Source: Acidobacteriota bacterium (lineage in GTDB: Bacteria; Acidobacteriota; Terriglobia; Bryobacterales; Bryobacteraceae). Taken from it: a DNA stretch of 42,817 bases. A program made the position numbers and the translations under genes. The DNA is taken from positions 1-42,817 of the forward strand of contig JACQZS010000272.1 of assembly GCA_016213725.1 (NCBI GenBank), given 5' to 3'. The notes beneath the pieces were generated by a model. That model searched no databases, was not told the DNA's origin, and saw only the letters and a program-made list of their open reading frames with translations. This document shows positions 10,765 through 16,700 of the stretch, piece by piece (positions within the stretch are counted from its first letter, which is position 1; each line of letters opens with the position of its first letter).

Positions 10765-10770
10765 GTATGG
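10765..10770. repeat. Target-site duplication, left copy (GTATGG)
   Basis: Six bases immediately before the transposon left terminus. The identical GTATGG stands directly after the right terminus at 16695-16700, as expected for staggered cutting by a DDE transposase. Confidence 0.9.
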
Positions 10771-10797
10771 TGTAACGCTCCGCGATTTTCCCCCGCG
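10771..10797 (+). repeat. Terminal inverted repeat, left
   Basis: Pairs with 16668-16694 on the other strand: 7 perfect outer bases, 19 of 27 overall. A second block about 35 bp in (CGCTTTTCTCGAATTAAG) resembles one about 50 bp inside the right end (CGTTTTCTCAGATTCAG), probably subterminal transposase sites. Confidence 0.85.
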
Positions 10798-10834
10798 TAG
10801 CGAGCCGCTTTTCTCGAATTAAGTCCAGACTGAA

Positions 10835-10860
10835 CCGTCGCGATCGTGCGAACGCGACGG
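10835..10860. other. Stem-loop in transposon left end
   Basis: A perfect 8-bp stem CCGTCGCG / CGCGACGG encloses a 10-nt loop. It has no T tract, so it is more likely a protein-binding palindrome or a barrier to read-in transcription than a classical terminator. The rest of the 260-bp non-coding left end holds no gene. Confidence 0.5.
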
Positions 10861-10985
10861 ACTGCAGTTTGAATCACTGGCGGGATCGCACGGGATACCG
10901 ATAATCCCAGCCTCGCCCCCGGGTTTTGATTCCAGGGTAGGATGACGGGCGGAGAGCCCGACTGATATAGGCAGCCAGGCCCTCC

Positions 10986-11051
10986 CCTACACCCATTCAG
11001 GGAGTCTTGACCACTCCCGGAAAGGCGCCCATGCAGATCCTACACCCATTC
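10986..11051 (+). repeat. 13-bp direct repeat flanking the zinc-ribbon gene start
   Basis: CCTACACCCATTC occurs exactly at 10986-10998 and again at 11039-11051, 53 bp apart. The second copy is codons 3-7 of the zinc-ribbon gene. It could be a pair of binding sites for autoregulation by an element protein, or a relic of a small duplication. Confidence 0.6.
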
Positions 11052-11636
11052 GTCGGCTCGATCCAACAGTACGCCGAAGCGATCTCCGATCCCGAGCGCT
11101 ACCGCCCGGATCACTGTCCTCAATGCGACGCCAAACAGCCACTCACCGGGCATGGCTTTTATCGCCGTACGCTGGTCGATCCCGGCTTTGAGGGCGTGAT
11201 CCGCGTGCGCCGCTATCTGTGTCGCCTCTGCAAACGTACGGTCTCTTTGCTGCCCGAGTTCGCCCTGCCGTGGCTGCGGTTCAGCCTCACAGTGATCTCG
11301 CTTTTTCTGGTAGCGCGTCTGCTCCAGGGCCTCACCCTCGCGGCGGCCGCGCTGGCGGCATCGCAAACCGCTATGCCGTATCAGCGCGGGCAGTTCTGGA
11401 TTCGCCGTTTTCGAAGGCAAGCTCCCGCGCTTGCCGTGGCGCTGGCACCGCTCGCGGCACGAGTCACCGCGCCCGACTTTGTCGCCCGCGCGCTCGCCAT
11501 GCTGGAATCCGTCGGCTGGATCGCCGGTCACCGCTTCCTACTCTCCGAGCTGCGCGCTCACCTACTGGGCTGGCCGCGGTTTCTCGTTCCGCACGGGCGG
11601 CGCACCACGCTGGCGCCGGCGCTCCCCACCACCTGA
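11031..11636 (+). CDS. Zinc-ribbon transposon protein (DUF6431-like)
   Basis: About 201 residues from ATG 11031, which has GGAAAGG as ribosome site; a TTG at 11007 is a longer alternative. The N-terminal third is a zinc ribbon: HCPQC near residues 35-39 and LCRLC about 40 residues later give CxxC...CxxC. A hydrophobic helical segment (LRFSLTVISLFLVARLLQGL) and a basic region (FWIRRFRRQ) follow, as in the zinc-finger plus helix-turn-helix start of several transposases, but no DDE residues are present. From memory it resembles DUF6431, found next to DDE/ExeA pairs; that is not verified. First gene of the transposon operon, 73 bp before the transposase. A DNA-binding role in end recognition or regulation is inferred. 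Confidence 0.75.
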   Translation: MQILHPFVGSIQQYAEAISDPERYRPDHCPQCDAKQPLTGHGFYRRTLVDPGFEGVIRVRRYLCRLCKRTVSLLPEFALPWLRFSLTVISLFLVARLLQGLTLAAAALAASQTAMPYQRGQFWIRRFRRQAPALAVALAPLAARVTAPDFVARALAMLESVGWIAGHRFLLSELRAHLLGWPRFLVPHGRRTTLAPALPTT

Positions 11637-11709
11637 GGCTACACACACAACATTTGCCTTGAGCCAGCACGGCTTCCCGTCTTAGGCTTTGGGGCGGGAG
11701 AGAAAATCA

Positions 11710-13023
11710 GTGGATGACAAAGCCGAAAAACTCGCCCTCTTCCGCTACGGTCTGATCGCTTCGTTGGTCCTCGAGCCACTACCTCACGGCGAGCTCACGC
11801 GCCGCGCCGAGGAGATCGCGGCCCGCCATTACGACATCCCCGATTCTAAACGCCGCGCCGTCACCGTCGATACGCTGCTGGAATGGGCCAAGCGCTACCG
11901 CAACGGCGGCTTCGAGGCGCTGGCACCCAAACCGCGCCAGGATCGCGGCCAGTCGCGCACCATCACCCCGCAGCTGGCGGACCTGATCGAACGCCTCAAG
12001 CGCGAAAACCCGCATCGCACCGGCACCACGCTGCTGCGCGAACTGGCTCTGTCTTCCGGCCAGAACGAGGCGCCGCTGTCGGCCTCCACGCTGTATCGCT
12101 TCCTCAAACAGCGCGGCCTCTCGGAAAGGCAACTGCTGGCCCCGCCGGGACGCAAGAAGTTCGAAGCCGAACTCGCCAACCAGATCTGGCAGGCCGACAT
12201 GCTATTCGGCCCCTGGGTCACGCGCCCCGGCGGCGGTCGCAGGCAGGTGTTCCTGCACGCCACGCTGGACGATGCCAGCCGGCTCATCCCGCACGCGCAG
12301 TTCTATGCCAGCCAGGGACTCGACGCCGCGCTCGACTGCCTGCGTCAGGCCATCGCCGCACGCGGCATTCCTGTCCGCCTGTACATCGACAACGCCAAGA
12401 TGTACCGCTCGCCGCAACTGGCCCGCATTGCCGCCTCGATTGGCACGCTGATCATTCACTCGCGGCCTTACCAGCCCGAGGGGCGCGGAAAGATCGAACG
12501 CTGCTTTCGCACCGTCCGCGATCAATTCCTCGCCAACCTCGATCCCAAACGCCGGTTGACTCTCGAGGAACTCAACGATCGCCTCTGGGCCTGGATCGAC
12601 GGCGTGTATCACCGCTCCCAACACAGCGCCCTCGGAATGACGCCGCTCCTGCGCTGGCAGCGCGATATCGAGCATGTCCGCCAGCTTCCGCCCGCCACCG
12701 ATCTGCGCCGCCTCTTCTTCCATCGCCTCGACCGGCTGGTGCGCCGCGATTCGACGTTCCTGCTGCACAACCGCCTGTATGAAGCGCCGCCGCATCTGGC
12801 CGGCCAGACCATCGAAGCGCGCTACGATCCCCTCGATCCCACCGAGGTCGAGGTCTGGCACCAGGGACAACTCCAGGCCGCGGTGCACCCCCTCGATCCG
12901 GTCGTCAATGGCCGCCTGCCTTCCGCCCAGCCGACTGACGCTCCTAGGCCGGCGCCCACCGGAATCAATTTCGTCGAACTGCTCAACCACAACAAGGACG
13001 ACGACGAGGAGCCGCCATGGTAG
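11710..13023 (+). CDS. DDE integrase-type transposase (TniA/Mu-like)
   Basis: Catalyses strand cutting and transfer of the element. 437 residues from GTG 11710, which has GGGAGAG upstream; TTG 11689 is possible. The N-terminal 130 residues are helix-turn-helix domains (VDTLLEWAKRYRNGGFEAL, LSASTLYRFLKQRGLS). The rve catalytic core carries the acidic triad: Asp in IWQADMLFGPW, Asp in RLYIDNAKMY, Glu in EGRGKIERCFRTVRDQF. A C-terminal Mu-like beta-barrel follows (YEAPPHLAGQTIEARYDP, EVEVWHQG) and an acidic tail ends in EEPPW. Length and order match Tn5053 TniA/IS481 rather than IS21 IstA. The next gene starts inside its last codons (7-bp overlap). Confidence 0.93.
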   Translation: MDDKAEKLALFRYGLIASLVLEPLPHGELTRRAEEIAARHYDIPDSKRRAVTVDTLLEWAKRYRNGGFEALAPKPRQDRGQSRTITPQLADLIERLKRENPHRTGTTLLRELALSSGQNEAPLSASTLYRFLKQRGLSERQLLAPPGRKKFEAELANQIWQADMLFGPWVTRPGGGRRQVFLHATLDDASRLIPHAQFYASQGLDAALDCLRQAIAARGIPVRLYIDNAKMYRSPQLARIAASIGTLIIHSRPYQPEGRGKIERCFRTVRDQFLANLDPKRRLTLEELNDRLWAWIDGVYHRSQHSALGMTPLLRWQRDIEHVRQLPPATDLRRLFFHRLDRLVRRDSTFLLHNRLYEAPPHLAGQTIEARYDPLDPTEVEVWHQGQLQAAVHPLDPVVNGRLPSAQPTDAPRPAPTGINFVELLNHNKDDDEEPPW

Positions 13024-13817
13024 AAGCCTTCTTCGGTTTTAAGAAAACTCCATTCGGCGACAGCCCCGATCCCAAACAGTTGTTCCCGTCGCAGGCCTGG
13101 AACCAGGTCAAGGCGCGGCTGCAGTTCCTGGTCGATCATCGCGGCGCGGGCCTGATAACCGGCGAGGTCGGCTCGGGCAAGTCCACCGCCGCACGCAGCT
13201 TCACCGCCGGGCTCAATCCCAACCTCTTCAAGGTGATGTATCTGCACTGGACGCCCGGCTCGGCACTGGACCTGCTGCGCCAGGTGGCGCTTGAGCTGGA
13301 TCTGGAGCCGGCACACTTTCGCGGCGATCTCGCGCGCCAGATCTCACAGGCCATCGTGCGGCTCAATCAGAGCAAAAAGCAGCACCCTCTGCTCATCTGC
13401 GATGAGGCGCAGTTACTCTGCCATCCGGCCCTGGAACAGCTCCCGTTGCTGCTCAACTTCGACATGGATTCGTCACGTTACCTGACGCTGTTGCTCGTTG
13501 GCCAGCCGCTGCTGCGCCGCACCCTCTCCTTGCAGATGCACGAGCCGCTGCGGCAGCGCATCGCCGTGCAGTACCACCTGGAAGGTCTCTCACGCGAGGA
13601 GCTCGATGCTCATCTGGCGCACCAGTTGAAGGCCGCCGGAGTCACGCAGCCGCTGTTTGACGACACCGCCCGGCAGGCGCTCTATCAGGCCACCAAAGGC
13701 ATTCTGCGCAAAGTCAACAAGCTGGCCCTTACGGCACTGCGCCTGGCGGCGGCACGCAAGGCGCACCAGGTCGGCGAAGCGATCCTGCTGGACGCCACCA
13801 CGGAGGCGATGCTATGA
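13017..13817 (+). CDS. ExeA/TniB-like AAA+ ATPase of the transposon
   Basis: 266 residues. Begins FFGFKKTPFGDSPDP, the ExeA-type opening. Walker A is GEVGSGKST near 50-58, Walker B LLICDEAQLL (DEAQ), sensor-1 like LLLVGQP, and an arginine-rich LRQRIAVQYHLEGLSREE block precedes the C-terminal lid. In Tn7 and Tn5053 the matching AAA+ proteins (TnsC, TniB) form ATP-dependent filaments that select the target and activate the DDE transposase; the same job is inferred here. It overlaps the transposase by 7 bp and the next ATPase by 4 bp (ATGA), so the three are made together. Confidence 0.92.
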   Translation: MVEAFFGFKKTPFGDSPDPKQLFPSQAWNQVKARLQFLVDHRGAGLITGEVGSGKSTAARSFTAGLNPNLFKVMYLHWTPGSALDLLRQVALELDLEPAHFRGDLARQISQAIVRLNQSKKQHPLLICDEAQLLCHPALEQLPLLLNFDMDSSRYLTLLLVGQPLLRRTLSLQMHEPLRQRIAVQYHLEGLSREELDAHLAHQLKAAGVTQPLFDDTARQALYQATKGILRKVNKLALTALRLAAARKAHQVGEAILLDATTEAML

Positions 13818-14785
13818 AGCCCGCCGCAGCGGCTGTGATGTCGCTGGCGCAGTTGCTCGAGCAGCAGCCGGCGGCGCCGCCGCCCTGCTTGGTGGAACCG
13901 GGACTGTTGCCTCCGCAGGGCATCCTGTTCGTGGGCGGGGAACCCAAGGTCGGCAAGTCGCTGCTGGTGGCCAATCTGGCCCTATCGCTGGCTGCCGGCA
14001 CAGGTCGCATCGGGTTTCCCGTCCCAACGGCGCGCCGCGTCCTGGTCTGCCAGTTCGAGTTGCCCATTCCGCAGTTTGTCAGCCGTCTCGCCACGATGCG
14101 CCGCGTGCTGGGCGCGTCCGCCGACCAGCATCTGCTGGTGGACACGCGCACCGCCGGTCATCTGCTCAGCGCCCCTCAGGGGCTGGGTCATTTCGTGGCG
14201 GCAGCCAAGTCCGCCGCGGCCGAAGTCATTGTTCTGGACCCGCTCTATTCCACGCACGATCAGGACGAGAACGACACCCGCGCCATGGCGGCCTTATGTC
14301 AGTCACTACTGCGGCTGCGCGACGCATCGCGCGCCGCGCTGGTGGTGGTGCATCACGTGCGCAAATCGATTGGCCGCCACGAGATCGGCAGTGCCTTTCG
14401 CGGCTCCAGCGCTTTGCACGCGGTGGGCGACAGTTACTTGCTGGTCACGCGGCCGTCGCCGCAACTGGCGACCGTCGAACTGCGCTTCCAGTTCCGCTAC
14501 GCCGCTCCGCAGCCACCACGCCTGCTGGAGTTGAATCCGGAAACGCTGTGGTTCTCTTCCACGGGTGCGGCGCCCAGCCCCGCCGCCCCCCGCCGGAAAG
14601 TAGAGAAGACCGATCTGGCGCAGGCCATGGCGAACATCGGCGATTGGGCACGTTATAGCGAACTGCGCGGCGAGATCATGAATCTCACCGAGTGTTCCAA
14701 ACGCACCGCGCAGTTGGCCATCACCGAGGCCTGCCGTCAGGGCTGGATCGTGCAGGCCGACGGCCAGTATCGCCTCCCGCTGTAG
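13814..14785 (+). CDS. RecA-like ATPase (AAA_25/RepA type) with C-terminal wHTH-like segment, transposon protein
   Basis: 323 residues. Walker A is GEPKVGKS near residues 42-49, Walker B VIVLDPLYS, and VVVHHVRKS plus GSAFRGSSALHAVGDS are the later RecA-fold motifs seen in RepA-type hexameric helicases and AAA_25 proteins. After a Pro/Ala linker the last 65 residues (DLAQAMANIGDWARYSELRGEIMN through CRQGWIVQADGQYRLPL) look like a winged helix. This is not a TniQ, TnsD, TnsE or resolvase and it occupies the position where such target-selection genes sit in Tn5053/Tn7. ATGA overlap with the upstream ATPase. Role unknown: a second motor, a target selector or a replication loader are possible. Confidence 0.85.
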   Translation: MKPAAAAVMSLAQLLEQQPAAPPPCLVEPGLLPPQGILFVGGEPKVGKSLLVANLALSLAAGTGRIGFPVPTARRVLVCQFELPIPQFVSRLATMRRVLGASADQHLLVDTRTAGHLLSAPQGLGHFVAAAKSAAAEVIVLDPLYSTHDQDENDTRAMAALCQSLLRLRDASRAALVVVHHVRKSIGRHEIGSAFRGSSALHAVGDSYLLVTRPSPQLATVELRFQFRYAAPQPPRLLELNPETLWFSSTGAAPSPAAPRRKVEKTDLAQAMANIGDWARYSELRGEIMNLTECSKRTAQLAITEACRQGWIVQADGQYRLPL

Positions 14786-14881
14786 CTCAGCGGTGGGCGT
14801 CGATGTCCGCACGGGGTCGCGCCCGGGCGGATGCCCAGGGCCGATGCGACGGAGCTGGCTCCAAAGAAATCGGCCGCAACC

Positions 14882-14915
14882 ACCCTCCCGTGCCTCAGAT
14901 CGGGTGCGGGAGGGT
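14882..14915 (+). terminator. Stem-loop after the transposon operon
   Basis: Perfect 9-bp stem ACCCTCCCG / CGGGAGGGT with a 16-nt loop, about 100 bp after the last + gene and before the convergent cargo gene. No T run follows, so intrinsic termination is uncertain. The surrounding 233 bp (14786-15018) hold no gene. Confidence 0.5.
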
Positions 14916-15018
14916 TGCTCATTTGTGCAGCGGGCAGGCCGGATAAACAACACTAGGGTTTTGTCCGTTGGCCTGTATCAACACGCAGATCCCACCGTCA
15001 CAGGAACCTCGCTGCTTC

Positions 15019-16182
15019 TTATCGGGGGAGTACTTCCTCCACCCCACGCAGATCGGTGTGCGCCCGCATCCGCTCGGGAGTGTTGAAGCCGTCGCGCTGC
15101 AGCACTCGCACCGCGTCCCGCTCAGAACCGAACATCCGAGCCTGCCTCTCCTCACCGAGGACCGCGCGCAGGACCTCGCGATCCTCTTCGGACGCGGCGA
15201 TCCCGTGGAGAGGCCGTACGAAACGTTGCCGGCTGACCGGCCCCAGGTAGACGTAGCCGTCACAGTATTGGCGGAGCCGGAGTTCGGGATGGCCTTGGGC
15301 GTAGTAAGAGAACCGCTCGATCACCCCGTCGAATTCCTGATGCGAGGTGTCGAATCCGACTGGCGTGACGTGTGCTTGGAAAGCCTGGTCCAGGACTCCG
15401 CCGAACGGCAGGCAGAACGCCTGCCTATAGAGCAGGATCGGGACGCGGAAGAAGTGCCTTTTCGCTTCGGGGTAGTGCAGTTTAATAAAAAATGGGGACC
15501 GGTTGAACCTAACTTTCAGGTGGTGCCCGATTCGACGCGGCCCTTTGCTCGCCTCAAGCCCCGGCTCATAGTAGCTCGTGAAAGCGTGGTGCGTGCCGGT
15601 GTAAACCAGCATTTTCCCCCGTTCCGACACCGCGCGGTTTATGACCTCCGCCCCGACGCTGTCGTTGACGCCCCAGATGCCGATGATGCTAAGGCGCTGG
15701 CTGCCGCGGTTCACCTCCCATGCCTTTTGAAGGACCTCGTATAGCTCCTCGTAATAGAAGTACGGGGCCGCCGAGAATACGATCCGCCGGGCAAGGCGCT
15801 CGTCGAATGCCGCTCCCGCAAGCAGCCGGTCGATGGCGGACTGGCTCGACTGGCGGAACAACTCGATCGCCACTTGATGGACGCCCGCTCCCGGCAATTG
15901 CGGCAGCAGTCCGATCAGAAACTCGTAATGCTCCCTCACACGGTGTGGTTCTCCGAGCAATACGACCGGATGCTCGGTGAACCTGTGTAGCACATAGGTT
16001 GCTGGGGGTTCCCCGTGCGCCCGCAGCGCAGCAACGAACTCGGCCGTCTCGGCCTGGGACAGCACTCGATAGCTGGGAGCGCGGTTCTCGAACAGATAGA
16101 ACCCCCCTGCGACGACGAGTGCGCCTGCAGTGATCCAGCCAGTTAACTTGATTGCCAAACGCAGACGATGCATAGCACGCAT
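15019..16182 (-). CDS. Membrane-anchored Tiki/ChaN-like protein, transposon cargo
   Basis: 387 residues, oriented against the mobility operon. Start ATG 16182 has AGGA six bases upstream; a second ATG is three codons in. An N-terminal anchor (LAIKLTGWITAGALVVAGGFYLF) is followed by HPVVLLGEPHRVREHYEFL, a GExH motif as in the Tiki superfamily (ChaN, TraB, erythromycin esterase), then VHQVAIELF and, later, GKMLVYTGTHHAFTSYYEPG with a conserved-looking His pair. In that superfamily these acidic and His residues bind metal or haem or form the hydrolase site. The C-terminal 100 residues are not recognised. Inside the transposon boundaries but not a known transposition gene, hence cargo. Probably faces the periplasm. 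Substrate unknown. Confidence 0.7.
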   Translation of the reverse strand: MRAMHRLRLAIKLTGWITAGALVVAGGFYLFENRAPSYRVLSQAETAEFVAALRAHGEPPATYVLHRFTEHPVVLLGEPHRVREHYEFLIGLLPQLPGAGVHQVAIELFRQSSQSAIDRLLAGAAFDERLARRIVFSAAPYFYYEELYEVLQKAWEVNRGSQRLSIIGIWGVNDSVGAEVINRAVSERGKMLVYTGTHHAFTSYYEPGLEASKGPRRIGHHLKVRFNRSPFFIKLHYPEAKRHFFRVPILLYRQAFCLPFGGVLDQAFQAHVTPVGFDTSHQEFDGVIERFSYYAQGHPELRLRQYCDGYVYLGPVSRQRFVRPLHGIAASEEDREVLRAVLGEERQARMFGSERDAVRVLQRDGFNTPERMRAHTDLRGVEEVLPR

Positions 16183-16667
16183 AGTAGGTCCTACATATTC
16201 ATTATCCGAGTTCCGCGCCTCTTTATGCGCCTAAATAGCATCATAGACGCTGAACGCCGACAGGCGCCGATGTCCATCGTCGCGGCCGAAGCAAAGTGGC
16301 TTCCGGTTAGGAAATGGCGCACCGGAATGCGGGGCTCCGGCACCGCCCGGCGGTGATCAAATCCAGATTGCAGACCCAATCACTGCTCAGAGGTTCGCTA
16401 TCCCCCAAGGCCCGTGCCGCCATGGAATTCGTCCGTTGTGCCAGGAAAGAGCGCTGCATTTCTTTGGTGAAGCTCCCGAGCGGAGGCCCTGGGCTATAAA
16501 CGCGAAGACGCGCCCGGCCGCTTCTGCCGGGCGCTTCCAAATGAATTTCTCGGCGGGATACACGGTTGTGCCTACACAGGCGAGTATCCTATCCCTCCGC
16601 CGATTTCACACCCAGCCGGACCGGCAACTGAATCTGAGAAAACGGGCGCGAATTACCGTGAGAACTT
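16183..16667. other. Non-coding right arm of the transposon
   Basis: Nearly 500 bp between the cargo start codon and the right terminal repeat. I see no credible gene. It holds GTAGGTCCTAC (16184-16194, a near-palindrome overlapping the cargo ribosome site), a strong stem-loop at 16510-16534, and a CTGAATCTGAGAAAACG block near 16628-16644 that resembles, inverted, the subterminal block of the left end. Confidence 0.6.
16510..16534. terminator. Strong GC stem-loop in transposon right arm
   Basis: Perfect 9-bp stem GCGCCCGGC / GCCGGGCGC with a 7-nt loop, followed by TTCC rather than a T run. It could block transcription entering or leaving the element. Confidence 0.5.
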
Positions 16668-16681
16668 CGAGGGGAAATAAT
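16653..16681 (+). promoter_or_regulatory. Possible outward promoter at transposon right end
   Basis: TTACCG (16653-16658), a 17-bp spacer, then AATAAT (16676-16681; five of six to TATAAT). Transcription would begin near the terminus and run into the small secreted-protein gene at 16722, whose own upstream region the insertion has displaced. Confidence 0.4.
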
Positions 16682-16694
16682 GTGGCCCGTTACA
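16668..16694 (-). repeat. Terminal inverted repeat, right
   Basis: Reverse complement begins TGTAACGGGCC and matches the left end at 19 of 27 positions, the outer 7 being exact. Confidence 0.85.
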
Positions 16695-16700
16695 GTATGG
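16695..16700. repeat. Target-site duplication, right copy (GTATGG)
   Basis: Exact copy of 10765-10770, directly abutting the right CGTTACA terminus. Confidence 0.9.

Follow-up and report, generated by a model that had tools for sequence, protein, structure and literature searches.

A DDE transposon with an AAA+ partner, an optional RepA-like ATPase gene and a structured right-end RNA in a Bryobacteraceae genome

The window analyzed here is a 42,817-nucleotide stretch from an Acidobacteriota bacterium of the family Bryobacteraceae (GenBank assembly GCA_016213725.1, contig JACQZS010000272.1), and positions 10771-16694 of it hold a complete mobile element of 5,924 bp that is flanked on both sides by an exact GTATGG. 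Judged from its sequence and its relatives, the element is very likely an inserted copy of a distinct and undescribed group of DDE transposons assisted by an AAA+ ATPase; in the broad sense of that class, a DDE transposase and an AAA+ protein of the activator type were found together between mobile ends. The element also contains a RepA-like ATPase gene that is optional in the group and, at the right end, a structured RNA that recurs beside other transposases of the same bacterial family.

Ends, core genes and relatives of the element

The first-pass annotation of this DNA had described TGTAACG/CGTTACA ends matching at 19 of 27 bases and bracketed by GTATGG, with four core genes and an opposed cargo gene between them. 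These ends were found where it had placed them, and all five genes are present. The ends and the core genes are:

10765-10770, unstranded: left copy of the target duplication GTATGG (direct reading and simulation)
10771-10797, plus strand: left terminal inverted repeat, TGTAACG..., matching the right end at 19 of 27 positions and similar in relatives
10810-10821, plus strand: left-end subterminal motif TTTCTCGAATTA at position +40, a putative transposase-binding site
11031-11636, plus strand: DUF6431 zinc-ribbon protein, 201 amino acids, weakly resembling an ISL3-type zinc finger (domain searches and alignment)
11710-13023, plus strand: DDE transposase, 437 amino acids, with an rve core and a Mu-type C-terminal domain (domain searches and profiles); its GTG start was picked by comparison with relatives
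13017-13817, plus strand: AAA+ ATPase, 266 amino acids, AAA_22, with MuB and TnsC ranking among its best relatives of solved structure (domain search and profile)
13814-14785, plus strand: RepA/DnaB-type ATPase, AAA_25, with a helix-turn-helix-like C-terminal part (domain, sequence and fold matches)
16630-16665, minus strand: two right-end subterminal motifs, 16630-16641 and 16654-16665 (motif comparison)
16668-16694, minus strand: right terminal inverted repeat, ...CGTTACA (end comparison)
16695-16700, unstranded: right copy of the target duplication GTATGG (direct reading)

Over their first 27 positions the terminal repeats share 19, and over the first 24 they share 17. The ends were compared with 1000 first-order Markov simulations of both flanking search areas, in none of which (0/1000) did a 6-bp duplication accompany TGT/ACA ends that matched at 17 or more of 24 positions, whereas an equally good inverted repeat without a duplication arose 23 times; because no simulation matched them, the GTATGG-flanked ends were judged to lie beyond chance. 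In nine elements of the transposase clade to which the window belongs (the window clade), compared with up to three mismatches permitted, a motif near TTTCTCACATTA was located at +40 from the left end in all nine and at +54 from the right end in six, and this constant spacing suggests that the subterminal motifs are transposase-binding sites.

A scan of genome contigs returned 24 loci, 17 acidobacterial and seven from Ectothiorhodospira haloalkaliphila. The annotation had pointed to relatives with the same ends as a check, and relatives do have them. The transposase was matched at E 1e-30 in 12 of the 297 genomes of a phylum-wide sample, and its profile at 1e-60 in 11 of 150 genomes of the family, the source genome being counted in both. 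The gene order DUF6431, DDE, AAA is shared by the window, L022, L051 (the Cupriavidus plasmid pBB2) and L019, in all of which DUF6431 scored above the Pfam cut-off. A CxxC...CxxC pattern was present upstream of the transposase at 10 of 20 family loci (L021 doubtful) and at none of seven reference loci; the pattern does not capture variants like the one in L022, and little upstream sequence is available at some loci. The reduced gene set is common to relatives in Acidobacteriota and Pseudomonadota.

Target duplications were also seen at other copies. The 3,404-bp copies of Ectothiorhodospira haloalkaliphila lie in three places between duplications of 5 (GAAGG), 6 (GCGGGC) and 5 (ACCCC) bp, L022 has a 6-bp duplication (CTCCCG), and pBB2 has a 4-bp duplication with a terminal match of 22/24. 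Once copies with the same flanks, with N in the flanks or cut by contig ends are excluded, 16 closed copies remain, of which 7 show a duplication of at least 4 bp. Nesting was observed at two Ectothiorhodospira loci (L044 and L045), where an inner 3,404-bp element lies within an outer pair of the same ends, and the outer pair of L045 has a 5-bp duplication of its own (CCGGG). One copy of the element was found in the source genome, the assembly of which comprises 341 contigs and is 88.8% complete; a second, distant DDE transposase (26% identical) is encoded there at G000:C261 9418-10335 (L026).

Placement among DDE transposons

The transposase residues D163, D227 and E263 were invariant across 12 aligned sequences (L028, L016 and L051 were left out of the protein alignments). 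None of the listed NCBIfam families reached its cut-off with this protein: it scored 182 bits with IS481 (cut-off 224), 80 with ISNCY_2 (cut-off 250) and 70 with IS21, the IstA model (cut-off 160), and an ISL3 or IS3 identity was dropped on scores far under the cut-offs. In profile searches TnsB was the best solved match of the transposase (E 1e-27), and IstA was matched at E 7e-13. The AAA_22 protein profile matched MuB (E 9e-12) and TnsC (E 8e-7) among many other AAA+ proteins, which gives the element a TnsC-type AAA+ partner of the kind found in Tn7; an IstB model was absent among the 11 families listed for this protein to E 0.1. As the annotation had held, TniQ, resolvase and TnsA/D/E are lacking, in that no such domain was listed for the five element proteins at E 0.1.

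The final tree was built from 36 transposases, 26 of them from this group; IS3 (broken frame), the truncated L056 and IS1202 had been dropped, and an earlier tree that included those three references, which this one replaced, had given further long-branch warnings. The results showed that the 26 group transposases form one side of a branch with support 85/78, and that the transposases of Tn552, Tn402 (TniA) and Tn7 (TnsB) form a separate clade (100/99) that excludes the group, so that the transposase of the element lies neither in the TnsB clade (Tn7) nor in the TniA clade (Tn5053/Tn402). IS21 joined IS481 weakly (84/42), with a long-branch warning. The annotation had suggested a poorly described group related to Tn7/Tn5053 with its own accessory ATPase; the element is complete and poorly described and does have such an ATPase, but it is not specifically related to Tn7/Tn5053, and the ATPase is optional. 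A characterised family with the same four genes, for which the annotation had left room, did not appear in the libraries and open papers searched, and no description of this element group or of its RNA was found in a literature search made mostly outside subscription papers.

We consider it unlikely that the element is an IS481- or IS21-type insertion sequence with acquired passengers, the AAA gene included. IS481 is a single-gene element, whereas the element here has a four-gene core, and its transposase lies below the IS481 cut-off, has a Mu-type C-terminal domain and is accompanied by an AAA partner and extra genes. IS481 is nevertheless its best-scoring NCBIfam family, and the TGT...ACA ends and 6-bp duplication are shared features, as PMC10045372 gives a 6-bp duplication as typical of IS481 and reports TGT...ACA ends for the related IS481EU. 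With IS21 the element has in common a transposase with an AAA+ helper, as well as the IstA profile match, but the IS21 score is under half its cut-off, the AAA protein matches AAA_22 and MuB/TnsC with no IstB model listed, and extra genes are present. In relatives having both genes the AAA gene follows the transposase gene, and this position together with the resemblance to MuB and TnsC makes it look like machinery.

Less probable still, and in our judgment very unlikely, is descent from a Tn7/Tn5053-type transposon through loss of TniQ, TnsA and the resolvase, since the TnsB and TnsC profile matches that favor it stand against a TniA, TnsB and Tn552 clade that excludes the element, the lack of these domains in its proteins, the zinc-ribbon pattern found upstream in none of the seven reference loci (one with fewer than 200 bases to inspect), and relatives in two phyla with the same reduced gene set. 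Tn7 and Tn5053 (Tn402) resemble the element in their DDE transposase and AAA+ partner, and also in having TG...CA ends and duplications of about 5 bp. The element differs from them in its own transposase clade, in having DUF6431 and the optional RepA-like gene, and in lacking a TnsA, TniQ/TnsD, TnsE or resolvase domain; the Tn5053/Tn402 reference R751 has both TniQ and resolvase. The Tn552 references that were compared likewise have a transposase and an AAA+ ATPase without TnsA or TniQ, but their transposases group with Tn7/Tn402 and all three references adjoin a resolvase-type recombinase. The Cupriavidus necator pBB2 locus, annotated as DUF6431-DDE-AAA without an element name, has the same three-gene core and TGTTACG ends in 3,470 bp, but no RepA-like gene and no RNA was found there. 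A phage origin was dropped, since 8 of 50,697 phage records matched and none did so over more than 80% of the query.

Several observations weigh against an inserted copy of an undescribed group. The support for the family clade (85/78) is moderate, and the tree leaves its order relative to IS21 and IS481 open. The structure model of the zinc ribbon was poor (59.9), and the genes upstream of the transposase at Ectothiorhodospira L043, and likewise at L024, yielded no DUF6431 match. No empty site with the flanks joined over a single GTATGG was found; in that search 97 of 101 family genomes had relatives of the right-flank gene, no match to the left-flank kinase end was seen around the two best homologues of that gene outside the window (G354 and G344), and the kinase itself was only 47-50% identical to its best match in each same-genus genome, that of G344 being on a different contig. 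Finally, 9 of the 16 closed copies have no duplication of at least 4 bp (L017, L024, L027, L029, L034, L036, L039, L141 and the outer copy in L044). Eight of these nine are on draft contigs of 3.6-9.2 kb, and the contigs of L019, L021, L081, L135 and L137 start or stop within 2 bases of a candidate element end; short draft contigs and breaks at element ends make chimeric assembly of repeats plausible, and this is a fair reading of the missing duplications, the alternative being rearrangement beside the element. At L029, a weaker left end (14/24) would yield a 5-bp duplication.

The RepA-like ATPase gene and a proposed mechanism

The fourth core gene, whose start overlaps the end of the AAA gene, had been annotated as encoding a RecA-like ATPase. 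This holds at the superfamily level, but RepA/DnaB hexameric helicases are nearer in sequence and fold, and the identity as a RecA recombinase was dropped. The closest solved sequence was RepA of RSF1010 (E 5.5e-4), and a structure model built from 15 sequences gave fold matches to T7 gp4, RepA, Twinkle and DnaB, with E-values around 1e-9 to 1e-10, in a list that also holds KaiC and RAD51-type proteins. The protein differs from RSF1010 RepA and DnaB in its location inside a transposon and its added C-terminal part, and the element is without a primase gene.

It is possible, though we lean against it, that this gene is a passenger that plays no part in transposition, such as a fragment of a replication module from a plasmid or phage. 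The gene is absent from three closed members of the same clade (L034, L036 and L039; 3.2-3.3 kb), hence it is not generally needed, nor did it turn up in L022, L051 or the Ectothiorhodospira copies; its absence from those three members, together with the middling confidence of the structure model (mean predicted local distance difference test score 71.6), tells against a helicase as part of the machinery. A passenger would sit less easily with the overlap of the gene with the AAA gene and with its company in other genomes. A match of E 1e-30 or better was obtained in 7 of 297 genomes; in six the gene adjoins an AAA gene of this type, five of these six also have the transposase, and the seventh genome is cut by a contig end. 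At L080, AAA and RepA-like genes occur with no transposase match. The gene adjoins DDE and AAA genes in three transposase lineages, namely the window clade, L019/L081 and L079/L140, the transposases of the last being about 26% identical to that of the window. This distant lineage, seen at L079 2251-5972 and L140 1683-4965 with its AAA and RepA-like genes, is related to a locus on a Cupriavidus pauculus plasmid.

L034 and L036 are nested in a subclade whose remaining members (L033, L135 and L141) have the RepA-like gene, so it was likely lost there. The tree of RepA-like proteins has two clades, and the L019/L081 proteins group with those of the third lineage (93/81), a grouping from which we infer that the gene was probably recruited or exchanged more than once.

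A mechanism can be proposed by analogy and from the predicted proteins. The DDE protein would bind the terminal and subterminal motifs, pair the ends and join these to the target DNA at positions staggered by 5-6 bp. MuB, TnsC and IstB bind target DNA and recruit and activate their transposases, and the AAA+ protein may do the same here; for the zinc ribbon, the probable role is that of a DNA-binding protein working with the transposase. Since no TnsA-like second-strand nuclease was found, 3'-end joining would be expected, giving a cointegrate or being completed by replication. The optional RepA-like ATPase, as a guess from its modeled fold, would most likely serve as a helicase, or helicase loader, at the joined ends.

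The right-end RNA and the cargo insert

Window-clade elements share a strongly conserved non-coding stretch that follows the last core gene and precedes the right end. In the window it is divided by an insert, and the features of this region are:

14805-14929, plus strand: 5' part of the RNA, with the P1 hairpin at 14806-14831, the 5' arm of P2 from 14833 and a central hairpin at about 14877-14917 (covariance model and folds)
14930-16445, unstranded, borders approximate: insert containing the cargo gene and missing from the nearest relative (comparison with L027)
15019-16182, minus strand: cargo gene, ChaN/Tiki-like (PF04187), 387 amino acids (open reading frame and domain search)
16446-16540, plus strand: 3' part of the RNA, with an inner arm at 16458-16465, the 3' arm of P2 to 16494 and the P3 hairpin at 16509-16534 (covariance model and folds)

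A structured RNA of about 220 nucleotides was read from the minimum-energy folds of all 11 window-clade right ends that were folded, every one of which has the P1 hairpin and the long P2 stem. In 9 of the 11 the better fold is that of the plus strand, and shuffling of three right ends gave z-scores of -6.2, -4.0 and -4.7. In L017, L029, L135 and L137, P1 is rebuilt with a different sequence while its loop is kept. In an alignment of 39 distinct sequences, standard pairs occupy 95.2% of 2038 cells, two-sided changes occur at 35 of 54 modeled pairs, and covariation is 0.371 against 0.150 when shuffled (0/500) and 0.05-0.08 with slid partners; because the alignment had been fitted to the model, the counts are biased in its favor, but the margin is large. 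The excess of G.U over A.C cells (174 against 25), under the same caveat, favors the gene strand as modeled. A coding explanation of the region was dropped, as it is conserved by pairing. There is a hint of a pseudoknot joining the P1 loop to the junction that follows P2, with both motifs present in 24 of 41 rows. The window had no Rfam match at E 0.1. When the RNA was searched at 12 other loci, the sole family matched was sucA-II, at two of them (21.9 and 21.1 bits, against a curated score of 70), so that no locus reached a curated score.

The covariance model matched the window in two parts, one at 14805-15020 scoring 70.6 bits and one at 16366-16539 scoring 54.0 bits, with the cargo insert in the RNA loop beyond the central hairpin, and P1, P2, the inner arm, the central hairpin and P3 all formed in a two-strand co-fold. 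That the pairing is kept around an insert may reflect either chance or tolerance of cargo at this spot. The nearest element, L027, is 4,470 bp long with the four core genes and no cargo; its identity to the window is 88% across 4,172 aligned bases and 76% in the 259 bases of the right end. We regard the cargo gene as a passenger because an element so similar over the core is without it, and for the same reason a place in the transposition machinery was dropped. A TTGTGC direct repeat at 14923 and 16436, near both borders of the insert, may be a duplication or chance.

The RNA was also found at the right ends of L027, L028, L034 and L141. In genome scans, run with stricter filters that lose weak matches, it was present in 46 of 150 family genomes at E 0.01 (43 of them at 1e-5) and in 2 of 297 phylum-wide genomes at 1e-5, the source genome included; no further copy was found elsewhere in the source genome, and one 208-base query gave no match in plasmids. 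The 30 family RNA loci returned fall into several contexts: 6 adjoin window-type AAA/RepA genes and share their strand, 13 lie beside ISNCY-type transposases, 4 beside another DDE transposase (two being nearly identical contigs) and 1 at a window-type right end only, while 6 had no match to the queries. Two of the RNA-adjacent ISNCY-type proteins scored 407 and 353 bits (cut-off 250); in L186, L188 and L193, among others, the RNA lies past the 3' end of the transposase gene on the opposite strand. The third kind of transposase is weakly IS481-like (33 of 224 bits; L183 3676-4929, L165 and L167). At all 17 loci beside ISNCY-type or other DDE transposases the main transposase match is antisense to the RNA, with one short piece opposite at L159. 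A group II intron was seen near one RNA copy (L192 7164-7899).

Together, the three transposase kinds, the strand preference and the conservation speak for a role of the RNA that is linked to transposons and not to this element alone. We put forward, as a tentative proposal close to evenly balanced, that DDE transposons of three kinds within one bacterial family have the RNA in common as a functional part, which may act as a regulator of transposition or as a guide or scaffold, and that some of these transposons have also recruited a RepA-type helicase to their AAA+ machinery. Two results weigh against the main reading of the element: searches of the other lineages within the transposon group of the window did not find the RNA, nor did it turn up in the disturbed window-clade loci L038, L048, L136 and L138, where an L036-like gene order is broken; in the remaining window-clade loci without a match the sequence stops before the right end. 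The simplest rival, to which we give a real but lesser chance, is that the RNA is merely a strong transcription terminator acquired repeatedly by transposons. Many copies do have a terminator-like hairpin followed by T-rich sequence, and in the classified contexts the RNA lies past the 3' end of the neighboring gene, but about 220 nucleotides with conserved loops and junctions and 54 modeled pairs exceed what a terminator needs, and at the 17 antisense loci the RNA and the gene are on opposite strands. Most likely the RNA is a regulator or scaffold that the transposon carries and that is produced from the gene strand, and a terminator or 3'-end role would be the plainest form of this. Guide or accessory RNAs occur in IS200/IS605, IS110 and CRISPR-bearing Tn7-like elements, and we know of none in plain DDE elements.

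The element adds a compact group to the AAA+-assisted DDE transposons, and natural versions with and without the helicase-like ATPase make the role of this protein directly testable. The shared RNA is the more surprising part; if functional, it would raise the question of whether RNA control operates in a very large class of transposases.

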